Shown piece after piece: positions 40,462 through 48,385 of a stretch of DNA of 48,506 bases. Each line of letters opens with the position of its first letter. The first letter of the stretch is position 1. Source of the stretch: Methanomicrobiales archaeon. GTDB taxonomy: Archaea > Halobacteriota > Methanomicrobia > Methanomicrobiales > Methanospirillaceae. The notes beneath the pieces are model-generated. The model did not search any database. It was not told the origin of the DNA and saw only the letters and a program-made list of their open reading frames with translations. A program made the position numbers and the translations under genes. The stretch spans positions 1 through 48,506 of the forward strand of contig JAAYCY010000076.1 of the NCBI GenBank assembly GCA_012729535.1. Direction: 5' to 3'.

Positions 40462-42384
40462 ATGGTTATGCGAATTATCAAACATAGTCTGTTGAGTATA
40501 TCTCTCATTATCGGATTGTTATTTGCCTGTGGTTGTGTTGAAGACAAACCGATTGACATCACAACCGTCTCCTCAAACCTCTCTCAACTTGCAGATGACA
40601 AATCCCGCAATGGCAGCATAAAAGAAGCACTCTCTTATTACGATGCAGTCATCAATCTCAATGAAACTGATCCAGAAATATGGCTCAAAATTGCATTTCT
40701 TCTCTCCAATGAAACGATTGACAACGAAGCGATAAGCAGCTTTACACGGGTTCTGGAACTGGATCCTGAAAATAGCACCGCTCTTATCGGAAGGGGAGCA
40801 ACTTATGTCAGGCAGGATCTTCTTCCCGATGCCCTTGATGATCTTAATAAAGCTACTCAGGTGGATCCATACAATGCCAAAACTCATGAAGGTCTGGCAG
40901 ATGTGTATTATGCAATGGGAGATACCGAATCAGCCCTTACTGAATATGGTATTGCCATAAACCTCTCTCCAAGAGCCTCAAATGTGTATAGAAAGCAGGC
41001 AGAACTATTGTATGGTGCCGGAAGATATAATGAAGCGGCGAAAGCATTTGACAATGCCCTTAAAATCAATCGTTCAGATGCTCATTCCTGGCAAAGACTT
41101 GGAGAAATGCTCCGGTTATCAGACCGTCTTGAAGAGGCGGCGATTGCTTATGGGCAGCTTAACAAACTGGTTCCTGACAATCCTGAAAACACCCGAACCG
41201 AGGCTGAATTACTTGAGAAGATCGGTAAATTTAAAGAATCAATAGAGATCTACTCCCAGCTGGTGAAAGAAGATCCGAAAAATGTCGATCTTCTTATTGC
41301 CCTGGCCCGCGTGCAGAACGTGGTGGGAGAATACGATGAAGCCGCGGCAATTTCCAGAAGTGCACTTTTAATAAACCAGAGTAATGCCGATGTCTGGGCA
41401 AACCTGGGATATTCCTATGCAAACATGAAAAAGTTTGACGCTTCGTTTGATGCCTTTAACAAATCACTAAAGCTGGAACCATCTGATCCTATTACTATCA
41501 CAAATGTTGGATTCCTTCTTATGCAGGAAGGAAGGTATGAGGAGGCATTGTTCCGGTTTCATAATGCAACCCTGATAGACCCCTATGATTCGGCAACCTG
41601 GATGCAAAAAGCACGTGCGGAACTTGCCATTGGGAAAAAAGATGAAGCACAAAAATCAGCAACCCATGCAACAAAACTTTCACTTGCATCAGATGATGCC
41701 TGGTATCTTCTTGGTGATGTTGCAACGGTAAACAAAGACTACCACACTTCAAAAGAGGCTTTTGAAACAGCTCTTCAGATTAATCCGCTCTCTGATGACA
41801 CCTGGAAGTACCTGGTGGATTCCATGAGGAACCTGAACCAGCAATTTGAGACTATACATTACTATGATAGTATGTTGTCTGATAATCCGAATATCACCAT
41901 TGCATGGATGAGAAAAGGGTATGCTGCAGACCTGGCCAAAGAGTATGCAATTTCTGAAGATGCGTATAGCCATGTTGTCAGTATTGATCCGAATAATACC
42001 GAAGGTTGGACAAATCTGGGATTTGCACGGTTCCAGCAGGGTAATTATTATGGTGCCCTTGAGGCTTTTGACCGTCCCATTGAACGAGAACCAAACCAGT
42101 CTGTATATTATGTAAACCGGGGTGCTGCATACCAGAAGATGGATCTCCTGGAAAAAGCCTATGATGATTTTTCAAGGGCACTAAATCTGTCACCAGACAA
42201 CCGGGATGCACAATATGGAATGGGGAAAACATTGTTTAAAATGGGTAAAGTCCAGGAGTCATTCCCGTACTTTAAAAATATTGGAGAAAATCTTTATATT
42301 GCCCGTGTGTATGACTCCATGTATCAGGGAGTTACATATTTTTCAAACAACTGGAATTACTGGCGCTTGTCTTACCAGTGGTGA
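40462..42384 (+). CDS. TPR-repeat lipoprotein
   Basis: A 640-residue protein. The N-terminus has a lipoprotein-type signal (LSISLIIGLLFACGC) with the lipobox Cys at 23 or 25, so it is probably membrane-anchored on the outside. The rest is about 16 tandem TPR units of 34 residues with the usual W/L/G/Y/A/P spacing (for example AWMRKGYAADLAKEYAISED; GWTNLGFARFQQGNYYGALE). TPR superhelices bind proteins, so it may be the scaffold for the three exported proteins before it, 16 bases upstream. A second in-frame ATG at 40468 is possible. The 3' end overlaps thiL by 13 bases, convergently. Confidence 0.88.
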   Translation: MVMRIIKHSLLSISLIIGLLFACGCVEDKPIDITTVSSNLSQLADDKSRNGSIKEALSYYDAVINLNETDPEIWLKIAFLLSNETIDNEAISSFTRVLELDPENSTALIGRGATYVRQDLLPDALDDLNKATQVDPYNAKTHEGLADVYYAMGDTESALTEYGIAINLSPRASNVYRKQAELLYGAGRYNEAAKAFDNALKINRSDAHSWQRLGEMLRLSDRLEEAAIAYGQLNKLVPDNPENTRTEAELLEKIGKFKESIEIYSQLVKEDPKNVDLLIALARVQNVVGEYDEAAAISRSALLINQSNADVWANLGYSYANMKKFDASFDAFNKSLKLEPSDPITITNVGFLLMQEGRYEEALFRFHNATLIDPYDSATWMQKARAELAIGKKDEAQKSATHATKLSLASDDAWYLLGDVATVNKDYHTSKEAFETALQINPLSDDTWKYLVDSMRNLNQQFETIHYYDSMLSDNPNITIAWMRKGYAADLAKEYAISEDAYSHVVSIDPNNTEGWTNLGFARFQQGNYYGALEAFDRPIEREPNQSVYYVNRGAAYQKMDLLEKAYDDFSRALNLSPDNRDAQYGMGKTLFKMGKVQESFPYFKNIGENLYIARVYDSMYQGVTYFSNNWNYWRLSYQW

Positions 42385-43232
42385 AGGTACCCCTTTTTTT
42401 CCAGGATTTTTCCGTCCATCATAATCTCATGACCGGTTTTTACTCTGCCAATGATGGTGTAAGGAATTTTTAGATCGTATGCATTTTCCTCTGATATGCA
42501 AAAGAGTAGTTCGAAATCCCCTCCTCCGAAAAGTGCGGCATGAAGTGCCCGGGATTTGTCTGCTTTTTGAGGGATAGGAATCTTCCTGCTTTCTATTGCA
42601 ATGCCGGCATGAGATTCCATTCCGATATCATACAGTGAAAGAGCCAGGCCATCACTAATGTCCATCATGGCACTTGCTCCCGCCCTTCGTATAGCTACTC
42701 CCTCCTCTACCCGTGGTTCTGGTTCACACAAATCCTTCCAGAACCGTTTCTCGCCTTCAAGACCCAGGATAGCCCTGCCCAGTGTGCCAGTCACACAGAT
42801 AAGATCTCCGGGTTTTGCACCGCTTCTTCTGACCGGAAGGTCATCTATGATGGTGCCAATGCCTGTAGAAACGATAGTAAGCTCATTATGAGAATCCAGA
42901 TCTCCTCCGGCATATACTGCTGAATATTTCTGACAGCAATCATGGGCCCCGTGAACAATTTCTTCAAGCCTTTCCTCATAGTCAAGACCGATAGCTAGCA
43001 GGATCTGCACCGGTTTTGCACCCATGGCTGCGATATCACTAATGGTTACGGCTGCCGACATCCAGCCAATCTGCCAGTCAGTCATCCCTTTTGGGAAGTC
43101 TGAATTCTCATGGAGCATATCTGTTGAGAGCACGAGCGTTGCACAGGGCAGTTTGAGGATTGAGCAATCATCGCTGCACGTATCATGGCCACAGACCGGT
43201 TTAATAATATTGAGCAGGGCTCGGTCATCCAT
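42372..43232 (-). CDS. thiL: Thiamine-monophosphate kinase
   Basis: Phosphorylates thiamine monophosphate to the active diphosphate. The 286-residue PurM/SelD-superfamily ATPase has the motifs DDCSILKLP, STDMLHENSDFP (metal-binding Asp), DIAAMGAKP, AGGDLDSHNEL, VTGTLGRAILGLE and MDISDGLALSL. It is the last gene of rio2-DUF460-thiL, three bases after DUF460. Somewhat shorter than bacterial ThiL because the N-terminus is trimmed, which is usual in Methanomicrobiales. Confidence 0.93.
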   Translation of the reverse strand: MDDRALLNIIKPVCGHDTCSDDCSILKLPCATLVLSTDMLHENSDFPKGMTDWQIGWMSAAVTISDIAAMGAKPVQILLAIGLDYEERLEEIVHGAHDCCQKYSAVYAGGDLDSHNELTIVSTGIGTIIDDLPVRRSGAKPGDLICVTGTLGRAILGLEGEKRFWKDLCEPEPRVEEGVAIRRAGASAMMDISDGLALSLYDIGMESHAGIAIESRKIPIPQKADKSRALHAALFGGGDFELLFCISEENAYDLKIPYTIIGRVKTGHEIMMDGKILEKKGYLHHW

Positions 43233-43235
43233 GGT

Positions 43236-45176
43236 TCATTTCACTTTCCTCTCCCGTTCGGCAAGGTACTCTTTCATCAGGTCCTCAAGCATTATCTCAC
43301 TTTTTCCTCTCATATAGTTCTGGTAATCATCATTCCAGGCATCAAGTGCATCAGAGTAAGTTTCCTGGTTACAGGTACCGATATCCCCTTTTACCTGGAT
43401 TTGCAGATCACCTGAAATCACCAGGGGTAAATTTTCCTCTAAGAATAATTCAGACAGTTCTCTGCTTATTGTATCAGCAGATTTTTCATGCAGGATGACC
43501 GATTCAACACCCGCTTTTGCAAGGTCATGGACGACTCCCTTGCCCCAGGCTGTAAGATTTTTCACATAAAGGATATCATCACGGCCAATTCCTACCCGCT
43601 CTGTTAGGTTACGGACACTATCCCGGGACAGGTCAGAGAGGACTTTCACCGCTTTTGTTCCCTGTGGTCTTAATTCATCAGTACTTTCCCGTATGCGTTT
43701 AAGGCGCCGGTGCAGTTTTTTATTATTTTTTTCCTCCTGCTTTAACCGGAATTTCAGGTTTGAAATTATCTGGTCCCTTTTGATGATATCCGGCTCGGTA
43801 TTTATTCCTCGTTGCCGTTCTGCTTTCATCCCTGTAATACGTTTGGTAAGAATGCTGTTCTCACGTTTCAGGTTCACAATCTCTTTTTGTAGGTCAGCAA
43901 CCAGAATTCGGAGATCTTTTACTGTTCCATCGAGAATTCTGACACGTTCATCGGATGTATCCAGGATTACCTGCGGTTTCTTTTCTAAAGGATCCCTTGG
44001 TGACTCTTTTTTACTTGATAAGATTTGATCCAGTGACTGGCCCCTGATAATGCCGGCTTTTACCTCATCAAGGTCAACACCGGGGGGAACACGCTTAAGG
44101 ATCCCTGAAAATTTATGGTTCCAGAACCGATATGCTTCAATCGCAGCAGTCAGAGCATCACGTTCATGATCGTTCCCATATCCGAATTTTCCAGCAAGTT
44201 CATATTTTGTTTCCACACTGATGTCCTGTTTCGGTGTGTGGGGAACTGCCTGGAAAGACCTGCGGATCTTTTCAACTGAAAAGGGCATGGGAACAACATC
44301 AGATGCAATGATTATCGGTTTTCCCAATGACCACAGAAACTCGGTTACATCTCCCATGGTCATCTGGCGTGAACTGTGAACTTTGAGAAGCTCACCGTTC
44401 AGGTCCAGGACAGCTATACCAATAGTAGTCCCGGGATCAATTCCAACAATGAGATACTTTGGTCTGGCAGAAACCGGCCTGTACTGTATCCTATCCAGCC
44501 TTTTGCCTGAAAGACGGATTTGGACATCACCTCCTCGTGAAGAAGTCACCGGTATCTGATCTCTTGTCTCCCTGACATGGAAAGTTACTCTTGATACCCC
44601 TCCAAAAGCCTTGTATTCTTTTTTCCAGTAAGAAAGACCCAGATTGTGAAGATTCTGCTCCACTTCCCGTGCATACCGCAGGACATTGCCGTGAATCTTC
44701 CTGGCATATCTGTTCTGGCTCCATCCTCCTTTTCCTGGAGACCGGTTTCTGGTAATAGTAATTTCGGTTTCCTTCTCGAATGCAACAACCTGTACCCCGG
44801 CACCGAAAAAAGCAACCTGGGCAATGGCGCGTGCCTCAGCAAAGGGGTCAAACCGGTCAAATGAGATATTATATCGTGCTGCTACCTGGATAAGACCGAT
44901 CTGCCTGTCTCCTCCTGTTACAACAACGAACTTTGTTATCGAGGGCAGAAGTTCTAAAAACCTGTATAAATCCTGTGTATGGGGAGCAATCTCCTGCACT
45001 GAATCAACAGCCAGAATATCAGGTTTATCACGATGGACTATTCTTACCAGCCTGTGTAGGGATACTGCCAGTTCACGAACAATTTTTCCCTCTTTGGTAA
45101 TCACCAATGCATATTTGGGTTGTATTGTCCTTGAACGGACTGAACCGGTGATAAGATCAATACCAAAAATCAGCAC
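43236..45176 (-). CDS. DUF460 (COG2433) RNase H-fold protein with coiled coil
   Basis: A 646-residue archaeal protein of unknown role. Two RNase H-like halves are visible: IFGIDLITGSVRSRTI at the start and LIVGIDPGTTIGIAVLDLNG around 240-260, with the ribonuclease-H-like Asp-rich strands. A HERDALTAAIEAYRFW segment follows. A long coiled coil (about 400-520, LVADLQKEIVNLKRENS; LKFRLKQEEKNNKKLH) precedes a C-terminal domain (VGIGRDDILYVKNLTAWGKG). DUF460 proteins are widespread in archaea and suspected to act on nucleic acids, perhaps as resolvase-like enzymes. It overlaps rio2 by 7 bases. Confidence 0.9.
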   Translation of the reverse strand: MLIFGIDLITGSVRSRTIQPKYALVITKEGKIVRELAVSLHRLVRIVHRDKPDILAVDSVQEIAPHTQDLYRFLELLPSITKFVVVTGGDRQIGLIQVAARYNISFDRFDPFAEARAIAQVAFFGAGVQVVAFEKETEITITRNRSPGKGGWSQNRYARKIHGNVLRYAREVEQNLHNLGLSYWKKEYKAFGGVSRVTFHVRETRDQIPVTSSRGGDVQIRLSGKRLDRIQYRPVSARPKYLIVGIDPGTTIGIAVLDLNGELLKVHSSRQMTMGDVTEFLWSLGKPIIIASDVVPMPFSVEKIRRSFQAVPHTPKQDISVETKYELAGKFGYGNDHERDALTAAIEAYRFWNHKFSGILKRVPPGVDLDEVKAGIIRGQSLDQILSSKKESPRDPLEKKPQVILDTSDERVRILDGTVKDLRILVADLQKEIVNLKRENSILTKRITGMKAERQRGINTEPDIIKRDQIISNLKFRLKQEEKNNKKLHRRLKRIRESTDELRPQGTKAVKVLSDLSRDSVRNLTERVGIGRDDILYVKNLTAWGKGVVHDLAKAGVESVILHEKSADTISRELSELFLEENLPLVISGDLQIQVKGDIGTCNQETYSDALDAWNDDYQNYMRGKSEIMLEDLMKEYLAERERKVK

Positions 45177-46030
45177 CCGGTTACACGACTCCGTATCTCA
45201 TCTTTATCTGAAGATATCCGGTACTTTCGTTGGAAGAACTTTGTGATGGTCTGCAGATCATGATCAAGAATTTCTCCGGCATTTTCATGTGAAGGTGATA
45301 TCCATTGCGGCCAGTCAATAATCCATATTTTATCACCATCATACATGACATTATACTCGGAGAGGTCACCATGGATATATCCGCGATGATATGCTTCCTG
45401 CATCTGTGAGAGAACTTCCTCAAAAATTTCCTGCGGGTTTTCAAGGGTACAGTCAGAGAGTTTATCACCTGCAATATAGGTCATAGCGATGACGTTACGG
45501 TTCATTGCAAGAGGAATCGGGACATTGACATGGTTTTGCAGGGAACATAATGCCAGATATTCCTGTTCAGCAGAAAAATGTGAAGCAATAACCCACGGGC
45601 AGTGTTGTTTTTCAGGGAGGTAACTTCTTCCTTTTCTTACGGTCTGAAAAGAACGTTGTCCAATACGATGAAGCTTTAAAATGACCGGGCCTGTTCCAAG
45701 CGCTTCGTATACCCGGGATTCTTTCCCTTCACCAATACAACTTCCAAGAGAACTAATTATTCCTTTTTTCACCAGGTGGCTGATGGCAAGAGTATCATAT
45801 CCGTTAAAAACGAGTGTATATCCGGAATACGGAACCTGGGAATACTTAATCATTCCCTTCTCCATCAACTTTGAGAGTCTGAATTCAGTTTCTCCGGCAG
45901 AAAAACGCGTATTGTGAATAATCTCATCTTTGGGTACCCATGAATACCGGGTCATGAGGTATTCTATAGACTGAAGGACACGGATTTCGTATTTGTGTAG
46001 GTTTTTTATATGCTCTGCCGAGAGATCCAT
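45170..46030 (-). CDS. rio2: Rio2 atypical serine kinase (ribosome maturation)
   Basis: An ATPase/kinase needed for late small-subunit assembly. The 286-residue protein has an N-terminal winged helix (1-90), then the RIO kinase fold. The Gly-loop is IGEGKESRVYEA (99-110), the ATP Lys is Lys119 in VILKLH, the catalytic loop is HGDLSEYNVM with Asp222 and Asn227, and the metal loop is IIDWPQW with Asp239. Winged helix plus the GKES loop identifies Rio2, not Rio1. It leads the operon rio2-DUF460-thiL. Confidence 0.95.
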   Translation of the reverse strand: MDLSAEHIKNLHKYEIRVLQSIEYLMTRYSWVPKDEIIHNTRFSAGETEFRLSKLMEKGMIKYSQVPYSGYTLVFNGYDTLAISHLVKKGIISSLGSCIGEGKESRVYEALGTGPVILKLHRIGQRSFQTVRKGRSYLPEKQHCPWVIASHFSAEQEYLALCSLQNHVNVPIPLAMNRNVIAMTYIAGDKLSDCTLENPQEIFEEVLSQMQEAYHRGYIHGDLSEYNVMYDGDKIWIIDWPQWISPSHENAGEILDHDLQTITKFFQRKYRISSDKDEIRSRVTGC

Positions 46031-46202
46031 CTGCTTACAGTTTTTATAATCCGGTTATGTTATAGTGCATTGTATGTGCAAACAAATACTCGGCATCAGG
46101 GTTTTGATGTACTGGTTTTTGATAGCGATCGCAGAGAAAAGAATAGTGTTCTTTTCTATTGAGGGATCTAAACAAATAATGAACATAACATGAGAGGGGA
46201 TC

Positions 46203-46889
46203 ATGCAGGGTAAGTCCTGTTTCAGGTGCAGTGAGCCTTCTGTTCTGTATCAACAATATTCGGGAAGATATCTTTGTGCAAAACACCTGTCAGAAGATAT
46301 TATCACTCGGGCTAAAAGGACCATTCGTCTCCAGGGCGGAATAGGGAAAAAAAATAAAATTGCTCTAATTCCTGGAGGACCTGGTTTTCTCCCGCTACTT
46401 GCAATTCTCGGATTAATCATCGATCAGAGACCGGGAATGGAGATTGTAATATTACAGTCCGGAAATGATGTGGATACTGGTTCAGCTGCATGTCATATTC
46501 TACCTGAAATGATACAAATCAGCATTGTCCCTGTAAAGCAGAAGTCCTGTATCAAGGTTGCAGAACATTATGGTGCAGACAGGATTTTTTGTTCTTCCTG
46601 TCTGGAAGAAGCAGCAGCAGATGTTCTATCCTGCGTGTTGTCTGGGAATATTTCTGGAATTATTCAAAAACCGGATGATAATGGGATGGTAATTATTAAG
46701 CCACTCTGTGAGATTCCCCATTCTGAAATTGCCATATTTACTCGTTTTTTTAACCTGCAGTCAAATGATGCCGGTTTATCAGGTAATGGGGATGTCCTTC
46801 AATTCTTATCTGATCTATCCCGGTCTCATCCCTCTGTTCCATTCTCACTTTTAAAGTATCGTGATCGGCTGCGTGATCTGGTGCCGTGA
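46203..46889 (+). CDS. Degenerate Ncs6/TtuA-like (tRNA thiolation family) protein
   Basis: A 228-residue relative of the archaeal tRNA 2-thiouridine synthetases (Ncs6/TtuA, about 300 residues). The N-terminus is a clear family match: zinc ligands Cys6, Cys9, Cys25, His28 (CFRC, YSGRYLCAKH) then RAKRTIRLQGGI. The ATP PP-loop, normally SGGKDS, is PGGPGF (57-62), so ATP binding is probably lost. The middle CxxC of the family is missing, and the GHNLDDEAQ site is replaced by SSCLEEAAAD. The KPLCEIPHSEIAIF segment still matches. A strong ribosome site (gagagggga) precedes the ATG. It may be a regulatory or structural paralogue. The frame is intact, so it is not simply decaying. Confidence 0.72.
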   Translation: MQGKSCFRCSEPSVLYQQYSGRYLCAKHLSEDIITRAKRTIRLQGGIGKKNKIALIPGGPGFLPLLAILGLIIDQRPGMEIVILQSGNDVDTGSAACHILPEMIQISIVPVKQKSCIKVAEHYGADRIFCSSCLEEAAADVLSCVLSGNISGIIQKPDDNGMVIIKPLCEIPHSEIAIFTRFFNLQSNDAGLSGNGDVLQFLSDLSRSHPSVPFSLLKYRDRLRDLVP

Positions 46890-46949: not shown

Positions 46950-47705
46950 ATGAACATTATGAATAGTGAAAAACCTGAAATTTCTCCGATAATCTTACTG
47001 CTTCAGGATGTCATGCAAAAGAGTGATGCGAAAGGATTTGTTATTGGTCTTTCCGGTGGAATAGACTCTTCAGTTGCTGCAACACTGTGTGTGAGGGCAG
47101 CAGGTTCTTCCCATGTCATGGGTTTTTTTCTTCCTTCATCAGTTACTTCCCTGGTTGATACAGAAGATGTGAAAATTCTGTCAGATGTTCTTGGAATATC
47201 CGTGCAGACTATTCCGATTGGACCTTTAATTGACCAGTACCGCAACATGCCTGGTTTTACTGACACACCTTATCTTGTTGGAAATCTTATGGCGCGAACG
47301 AGAATGGCAATCCTGTATTATTATGCCAATCAGATGAACCTGCTTGTGTGTGGAACATCGAATTATACTGAATACCTGCTTGGGTACTGCACGAAGTATG
47401 GGGATAGTGCAGCAGATGTTCAGCCGATAATACACCTGCAGAAATCAGAAATCTGGAACCTTGCAAAAGACCTTGATATTCCTGGCAGGCTTATTGAAAA
47501 AGTTCCATCTGCAGGTTTATGGCCGGACCAGACTGATGAAAAGGAACTCGGGATGAAATATGCCGATATTGATCGGATAATTTCTAACCTTGAAAGACAG
47601 GGGTGGGGTGCGAAAACCCCTGAAGAGAAGCAGGTGCTGGAAATGGTTCACCGGGCCGGTCATAAAAAGCAACCAGCGCCTCAGGTGAACAGATACAGCT
47701 TCTGA
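46950..47705 (+). CDS. nadE: NAD+ synthase (ammonia-dependent)
   Basis: Last step of NAD synthesis: deamido-NAD plus ammonia to NAD with ATP. The 251-residue protein has the intact PP-loop GLSGGIDSSVA (33-43), then GNLMARTRMAILYYYAN, GTSNYTEYLLGYCTKYGDSA and KVPSAGLWPDQTDE, all standard. There is no glutaminase domain, so free ammonia is the nitrogen source, as normal in methanogens. A second in-frame ATG at 46959 is possible. The end overlaps the convergent isomerase by 25 bases. The preceding gene is a degenerate member of another PP-loop family, but homology between the two is remote. Confidence 0.95.
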   Translation: MNIMNSEKPEISPIILLLQDVMQKSDAKGFVIGLSGGIDSSVAATLCVRAAGSSHVMGFFLPSSVTSLVDTEDVKILSDVLGISVQTIPIGPLIDQYRNMPGFTDTPYLVGNLMARTRMAILYYYANQMNLLVCGTSNYTEYLLGYCTKYGDSAADVQPIIHLQKSEIWNLAKDLDIPGRLIEKVPSAGLWPDQTDEKELGMKYADIDRIISNLERQGWGAKTPEEKQVLEMVHRAGHKKQPAPQVNRYSF

Positions 47706-48385
47706 TATGCTTCGGTGAAAGAACCGGGTTTATTTAAAAATTTCAGGGATTTTTCATCACCAATGCATGAATATAGGTTTTGTTGTGGAAAAGGAAGGGG
47801 CAGTTGTTTTCCATGACAGGTTACTTCGCGGACCGGGGGGAGGTTTTCCGGGTATTTTTTGTTTTTCTTAACTCCTCCATCGGCATAATAGTAATATGCT
47901 GCTCCACGCATTTTTTCAAATGGCACATAATCACTACTAAATGCAGAAGAGACAAGGTTTGCCATAAGGAGAGTTTGGTTTGACGGGTTTATGGTTACAT
48001 GCCCATATCCTGGAGGGATGAGGACAAGATCCCCTGTCCTTGCCCTTACCAGAATGATATCAGAAAGGTCCTGTTTCTGAAGCAGGTATAATGCTTCTCC
48101 CTCAAGAACCTCATATATCTCTGTATATGCAAAGCCATCAGGGGCAGACGGGTGGTAATGACCTTTGGTTTTAATCCATTCACCACAGATTATTTTACCC
48201 GGTATACGGGTGATATCATATCTTATCTGGTTATTAGAGAGCCAATCCTTATCATTAGTATTGAGTGAAAGACCCCGGAACATCTCATAAGCCATTCCTT
48301 CACATTGACAGTTTTCTTCAGCCATCACGGAAAGAAGTTCTTTGCAGTCTCTGATGTCCGGGTTTTCAAGTGGGATTGCCTGCAT
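47681..48385 (-). CDS. pgi: Glucose-6-phosphate isomerase, archaeal cupin type
   Basis: Interconverts glucose-6-P and fructose-6-P using a metal-binding cupin, unrelated in fold to the bacterial enzyme. The 234-residue protein has metal ligands visible as His76 and His78 (KGHYHPS), Glu89 in AYTEIYEVLEG and His129 in PPGYGHVTINP. The PPGYGHVTINPSN strand is the cupin end motif. The first-motif loop between His78 and Glu89 is longer by four residues than in the Pyrococcus enzyme. The gene would supply glucose-6-P for the surface sugars made with the nucleotidyltransferase at 28361. Confidence 0.92.
   Translation of the reverse strand: MQAIPLENPDIRDCKELLSVMAEENCQCEGMAYEMFRGLSLNTNDKDWLSNNQIRYDITRIPGKIICGEWIKTKGHYHPSAPDGFAYTEIYEVLEGEALYLLQKQDLSDIILVRARTGDLVLIPPGYGHVTINPSNQTLLMANLVSSAFSSDYVPFEKMRGAAYYYYADGGVKKNKKYPENLPPVREVTCHGKQLPLPFPQQNLYSCIGDEKSLKFLNKPGSFTEAYQKLYLFT

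Follow-up and report, generated by a model that had tools for sequence, protein, structure and literature searches.

A catalytically dead NcsA at the native ncsA locus of Methanomicrobiales as a candidate partner in a divided tRNA U34 thiolase

At the native ncsA locus of a methanogen of the order Methanomicrobiales stands a gene, here called X, whose product has lost the catalytic features of the tRNA U34 2-thiolase NcsA, and a second, intact NcsA, here called S, is encoded elsewhere in the same genome. Across the order, decay of X goes together with the presence of S, has taken place many times and is mirrored by the loss from S of N-terminal residues that X keeps. We propose that X is probably the native enzyme turned dead, a putative counterpart of Ncs2/Ctu2 that would work with S in a divided U34 thiolase. 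The analogy with eukaryotic Ncs2/Ncs6 suggests that the dead native copy and the second copy, with its opposite pattern of retention, share one job.

In the literature, the archaeal U34 thiolase is a homodimer of a single protein and the eukaryotic Ctu1/Ctu2 pair is a later derivative. The enzyme of Methanococcus maripaludis (MmNcsA) is a homodimer on which the modelled human Ctu1/Ctu2 heterodimer superposes, and archaeal NcsA has been described as a stand-alone, single-protein enzyme (PMC10067955). Ctu2 is without the Fe–S cysteines, keeps its zinc sites and has been put forward as the subunit that orients the tRNA (PMC10067955). The literature leaves unsettled what this dead partner does within Ctu1/Ctu2, and gives the human complex as not purified.

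X lies in the window, by which we mean the whole stretch of DNA analysed (48,506 nucleotides), and occupies an open frame that begins with ATG directly behind a ribosome-binding-like sequence (see the table). Its N terminus is a zinc finger of the TtuA_LIM_N type (Pfam PF22082, E 2.9e-6, above the cut-off), a family matched by 21 of 21 X homologues. The NCBIfam model of NcsA matches X strongly only over the N-terminal ~42 residues (44 bits; cut-off 500), and TIGR00269 matches weakly at the C terminus. A profile of the 21 homologues, however, matches MmNcsA (6SCY) end to end (E 3e-30), and an AlphaFold model of X (pLDDT 85, pTM 0.85) has 6SCY as its best structural match (TM 0.81 by query length). 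From these profiles and the model, X is predicted to be a full-length NcsA/Ncs6-fold protein despite its low similarity. The window belongs to the genus Methanospirillum: the contig scan, which used a genus-level alignment as its query, showed M. stamsii to be a relative with 50% identity. Full-length homologues rule out a chance open reading frame.

What X has lost is the chemistry. In the alignment PGGPGF stands in place of the PP-loop SGGKDS, the CxxC stretch is deleted and GHNLDDEAQ has shrunk to SSCLEEAAA; the third Fe–S cysteine and the C-terminal zinc finger are gone from the window protein, and none of the U34 pocket residues Glu88, Arg94 and Arg241 is retained. An earlier note on this DNA, made from its letters alone, had already read an intact frame with a strong ribosome site, a zinc-ribbon N terminus of the tRNA thiolase type and the disappearance of these motifs, and our searches and alignment agree with it on each. 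Its question of whether PGGPGF is conserved among orthologues has a negative answer: within the genus the position reads HDGPGF, WEGQAC, TGMRGS or PGGDAF. This variability rules out a new conserved loop, and by its sequence PGGPGF is merely a decayed one, with no conserved motif.

Table. Features of X and its neighbourhood, in window coordinates
Feature	Position	Strand	Basis or remark
ThiL (thiamine-phosphate kinase), conserved neighbour	42372..43232	-	TIGR01379 above cut-off; synteny
DUF460 protein, conserved neighbour	43236..45176	-	Pfam; synteny
RIO2 kinase, divergent neighbour of X	45170..46030	-	Pfam RIO1 and Rio2_N; synteny
Ribosome-binding-like GAGGGGATC, directly before the X start	46194..46202	+	8/9 match to GAGGTGATC
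X, catalytically dead NcsA-derived protein, 228 aa	46203..46889	+	Frame open throughout; homologous proteins in relatives; predicted fold matches NcsA 6SCY
N-terminal zinc finger (C6, C9, C25, H28)	46218..46286	+	Pfam PF22082; invariant in 50/50 degraded X
Q17-x-Y19-S20-G21 turn of the finger	46251..46265	+	Retained in X, gone from the second NcsA
Lys38 to Arg42, first helix	46314..46328	+	Retained in X, gone from the second NcsA; helix 26-43 in the model
Former PP-loop, PGGPGF replacing SGGKDS	46371..46388	+	Alignment
LEE, remnant of LDD in GFNLDDEAQ	46602..46610	+	Alignment
His209-Pro210 (window numbering), invariant among degraded X	46827..46832	+	Conservation across degraded X
NAD synthase, intact SGGIDSS loop	46950..47705	+	60 bp downstream of X, codirectional; adjacency to X frequent, not constant
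GPI-type glucose-6-phosphate isomerase	47681..48385	-	Pfam PF06560

X and its homologues lie head-to-head with the gene of the kinase RIO2, with DUF460 and ThiL behind it. Relatives without S have an intact, single NcsA at exactly this place (for example G018, G022, G061, G063, G064 and G094), and intact ncsA also stands beside RIO2-DUF460 in an outgroup family (G121, L116) and in Archaeoglobaceae (L195), so that the ncsA-RIO2-DUF460 linkage goes back to a common ancestor. By position, then, X is orthologous to the native ncsA of Methanomicrobiales, a resident of this locus rather than a copy that strayed into it. Downstream, the NAD synthase (NadE) is itself a PP-loop enzyme, which adjoins X in several families and is separated from it by a gap of ~1.7 kb in others. 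In two genomes (G095, G085) RIO2 was not found in the stretch fetched beside X, and X adjoins NadE there. The shortest X proteins, of 183-197 aa, belong to one family, f6 (L069 of G095, L140, L141, L154).

The sole other NcsA in the genome of the window is S (G000:C22:22361-23230), in which every motif is intact. Its pocket positions hold Glu/Arg/Arg, as in U34 enzymes, where TtuA has Leu/Ser, which rules out its being a TtuA. In the tree, S sequences form a separate clade (support 100/100; intact X clade, 100/99) whose branching does not track host families and to which an additional copy from beyond the order, in the family of G108, also belongs. Because the clade is distinct and does not follow its hosts, horizontal spread is the simplest reading, and the clade is apparently mobile; the intact thiolase S is the later arrival, and X marks the native locus. 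A plasmid-borne gene was considered and set aside, a plasmid check having given no match. The extra copy in G108 (L124) is a long-branched NcsA beside an intact native one, with one internal TAG reported. Second NcsA-like copies in three further outgroup genomes (L115, L117 and L128, of G184, G121 and G165) have Leu/Ser at the U34-pocket positions and so are probably TtuA-type U54 enzymes beside NcsA.

No operon joins X to S, and the two mostly lie far from each other on the chromosome. Separations of only 7-45 kb, closer than chance would suggest, were seen in the L065/L070/L071/L072 group (G065, G070, G090), in L016/L049 (G014), in G079 and in Methanothrix G216; as a general feature, chromosomal clustering was rejected, since most lineages have wide spacing.

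The survey of the X locus covered about 80 genomes of Methanomicrobiales, of which 50 have a degraded X and 29 have SGGKDS. S is present beside 48 of the 50 degraded genes and absent beside 24 of the 29 intact ones; in the two genomes with a degraded X and no detected S (G060, 66% complete; G077, 91% complete) it is probably a matter of missing sequence. Five genomes combine S with a fully intact X, so that S does not force immediate decay. Losses were counted from a tree built on the neighbouring genes RIO2, DUF460, ThiL, GPI and NadE (1706 columns), because a gene tree that contains degraded X groups them by their long branches. On this locus tree—a quick one, with SH-aLRT support only, of genes linked to X—there are 13 state changes, at least 11 of them on well-supported branches; counted as losses only, X was inactivated ~14 times (at least 11), in every sampled family save one (f2). 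Independent pairs that differ in S, on which we rely as a plain Fisher test ignores kinship, show degradation in the same direction by 8-9 to 0 (p 0.004-0.008). Decay is found in stages: in G079 and G017 little beyond the PP-loop has been lost, and other X genes have lost everything.

These results reshape what the earlier note had supposed. The intact thiolase that it proposed to search for exists, and its idea of a maintained but catalytically dead copy is borne out by purifying selection on X. Orthologues with an SGGKDS loop, which it had set against that idea, occur in 29 genomes and refine it rather than refute it, because those genomes mostly lack the second enzyme. Of the new role that it suggested, one with a true thiolase or in tRNA binding is still the best reading; the gene itself, though, is the native ncsA locus and no secondary copy from which the loop has gone.

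The residues that X keeps are not those that catalysis requires. Among the positions that are invariant in intact X, twelve are retained in 100% of the degraded X proteins (n = 50): Cys6, Cys9, Gln17, Ser20, Gly21, Cys25, His28, Arg42, Pro201, Glu209, His248 and Pro249 (numbered as in the enzyme of G061, which coincides with the window up to about residue 50). The three Fe–S cysteines (Cys142, Cys145 and Cys233 of MmNcsA) are lost, the corresponding stretch in the window protein being deleted or substituted; residue roles, here and in what follows, are taken from the MmNcsA structure paper (PMC10067955). PP-loop Lys61 and Asp62 survive in 6% of the 50 proteins, Glu88 in 34%, Arg94 in 16%, Arg241 in 6% and each of the four Cys positions of the C-terminal zinc finger in about 20-30%, the low figures in mid-protein being approximate because the alignment is uncertain in the decayed middle region.

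S shows the opposite pattern. Single-copy NcsA has 68 conserved positions. Degraded X has lost 30 of these that S retains, and S has lost seven that X retains (Gln17, Tyr19, Ser20, Gly21, Lys38, Arg42 and Pro206), six of them within the first 45 residues. Scored as an N-terminal motif of nine positions, the N-motif, and 13 catalytic positions, single-copy Methanomicrobiales NcsA has 9/9 and 13/13; S has 0-4 of 9 and, save for one contig-end fragment, 13/13; degraded X has 7-9 of 9 and 0-12 of 13. The core of the motif, Q-x-Y-S-G with Lys38 and Arg42, is near-universal in degraded X, and both the hairpin turn with Q-x-Y-S-G and the helix 26-43 with Lys38 and Arg42 are well predicted in the model of the window protein. 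Where S accompanies an intact X, as it does in five genomes, the N-motif is already missing from S, so its loss from S preceded the decay of X; it was probably one event or a few, and hence only the X side of the pattern is highly repeated. The motif is not indispensable in every NcsA, since native, catalytically intact enzymes of the outgroup family (L107 of G102, L116 of G121, L129 of G165) have only 2-6 of 9.

Methanothrix (relatives L191, L192, L200-L220) provides a second case. Its native-lineage NcsA is without the Fe–S cysteines and the C-terminal finger, and usually without the PP-loop, and keeps 8-9 of 9 N-motif positions; its second NcsA, in a clade next to S, is catalytically intact, with an N-motif of only 3-7 of 9. 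The order of loss differs: in L211 and L212 the cysteines and the C-terminal finger have gone while SGGKDS is still in place. As read from these sequences, Methanothrix repeats the X/S pattern independently.

In the mechanism that we propose, a second U34-type NcsA would enter a genome and X would become its non-catalytic partner. S would supply the chemistry, with activation by ATP, a [4Fe-4S] cluster and the pocket for the uridine, and X the N-terminal zinc-finger and first-helix surface that is missing from S, with X holding or orienting the anticodon arm of the tRNA. The product would be a heteromeric thiolase, most simply an X–S heterodimer on the plan of the NcsA homodimer, in which S would depend on X. 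Because the loss of residues is reciprocal, a division in methanogens like that of Ctu1/Ctu2 is the simplest account. More tentatively, we lean towards the wider reading that homodimeric NcsA repeatedly became an obligate heteromer of a dead subunit with the N-terminal function, the old resident, and a catalytic-only, spreading NcsA without the N-motif—an independent replay of the origin of Ncs2-Ncs6, with living intermediates.

The likeness to Ctu2/Ncs2 lies in what X is: a dead paralogue of the NcsA/Ncs6 family, without Fe–S cysteines, with its N-terminal zinc site kept and with an intact U34-type relative present. In origin the two differ, X having arisen independently and repeatedly as the native gene decayed following the acquisition of a second NcsA. 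Ctu2 is reported to keep both zinc-finger sites, whereas X is shorter and has lost the C-terminal finger, and its complex with S is a putative one. No Pfam match to the CTU2 family was found in X or its homologues; as judged by descent in the sequences, X comes from native archaeal ncsA and not from a common ancestor with eukaryotic Ctu2, so that, if the model is right, it works like Ctu2 without being Ctu2. With NcsA proper (M. maripaludis 6SCY, Haloferax HVO_0580) X shares the fold and the N-terminal finger and is orthologous by position and sequence, but it has lost all catalytic features. TtuA, the m5U54 2-thiolase of thermophiles, has the superfamily, zinc finger and fold in common with X; its Leu/Ser pocket set is absent, S having Glu/Arg/Arg and X neither set.

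Simple decay of an unimportant gene on its way to loss, displaced by S, would account for the graded stages and for the faster evolution of X relative to its neighbours (dN/dS of about 0.3 for X and about 0.1 for them). Degraded X genes taken in pairs nevertheless have an NG86 dN/dS of 0.15-0.51 (median about 0.3), compared with 0.07-0.22 for intact X and mostly 0.05-0.15 for RIO2, DUF460 and NadE; there is no internal stop or interrupted X among the Methanomicrobiales matches listed, despite large divergence; and of the 42 genomes that carry S and are at least 90% complete, none is without X. X is thus relaxed but maintained. The twelve invariant residues have outlasted about 14 independent inactivations, and constraint on the N-terminal helix matches that in intact enzymes (pN/pS 0.15 versus 0.14). 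Purifying selection and the retained residues rule out a recent pseudogene and, as a general account, decay, which we find barely credible here although it could hold for a single lineage. New chemistry is hardly more plausible. Some PP-loop-fold proteins act on other substrates, but no new conserved motif replaces those lost from X, constraint is among the lowest at its former loop and in its mid region, and PGGPGF is variable even within the genus.

The main rival to X–S pairing is subfunctionalisation, in which native NcsA had a second, non-catalytic job in its finger and first helix, such as binding a translation or RNA-processing partner, that X kept when thiolation moved to S. This would explain why X and its N-motif are retained and the rest has decayed, and the ancient linkage of ncsA to RIO2 is in keeping with it, as is the association of Haloferax NcsA with aCPSF1, EF-1alpha, UbaA, SAMP2 and PAN-A (PMC4048286). 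We think it unlikely, though a serious candidate: by itself it leaves unexplained why a working thiolase, S, is without the N-motif present in most single-copy U34 thiolases, and why X has kept the NcsA fold and Pro201/Glu209/His248/Pro249. X might instead be a tRNA-binding regulator or competitor that tunes S and is not a required subunit. Pseudoenzymes often regulate active relatives, and X has kept both the fold and the N-terminal finger; some lineages, however, should have lost a mere regulator, against the unbroken presence of X beside S, and this reading predicts no reciprocal loss in S, so we consider it improbable. The reciprocal loss fits most simply a divided thiolase in which X and S would be paired.

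Dead paralogous subunits are already known as a kind among tRNA-modifying enzymes; what appears to be new is a version that is archaeal, has arisen repeatedly and is reciprocal. In the literature searched, mostly outside subscription journals, we found no description of a dead NcsA or of a two-subunit archaeal U34 thiolase. For annotation the result is a warning, as in many methanogens the gene called NcsA or TtuA-like beside RIO2 cannot encode a thiolase. If the model is true, methanogens offer about 14 independent inactivations of a native enzyme beside a second NcsA, intermediates included, and the reciprocal pattern points to what the dead subunit would contribute: the Q-x-Y-S-G turn, Lys38 and Arg42.
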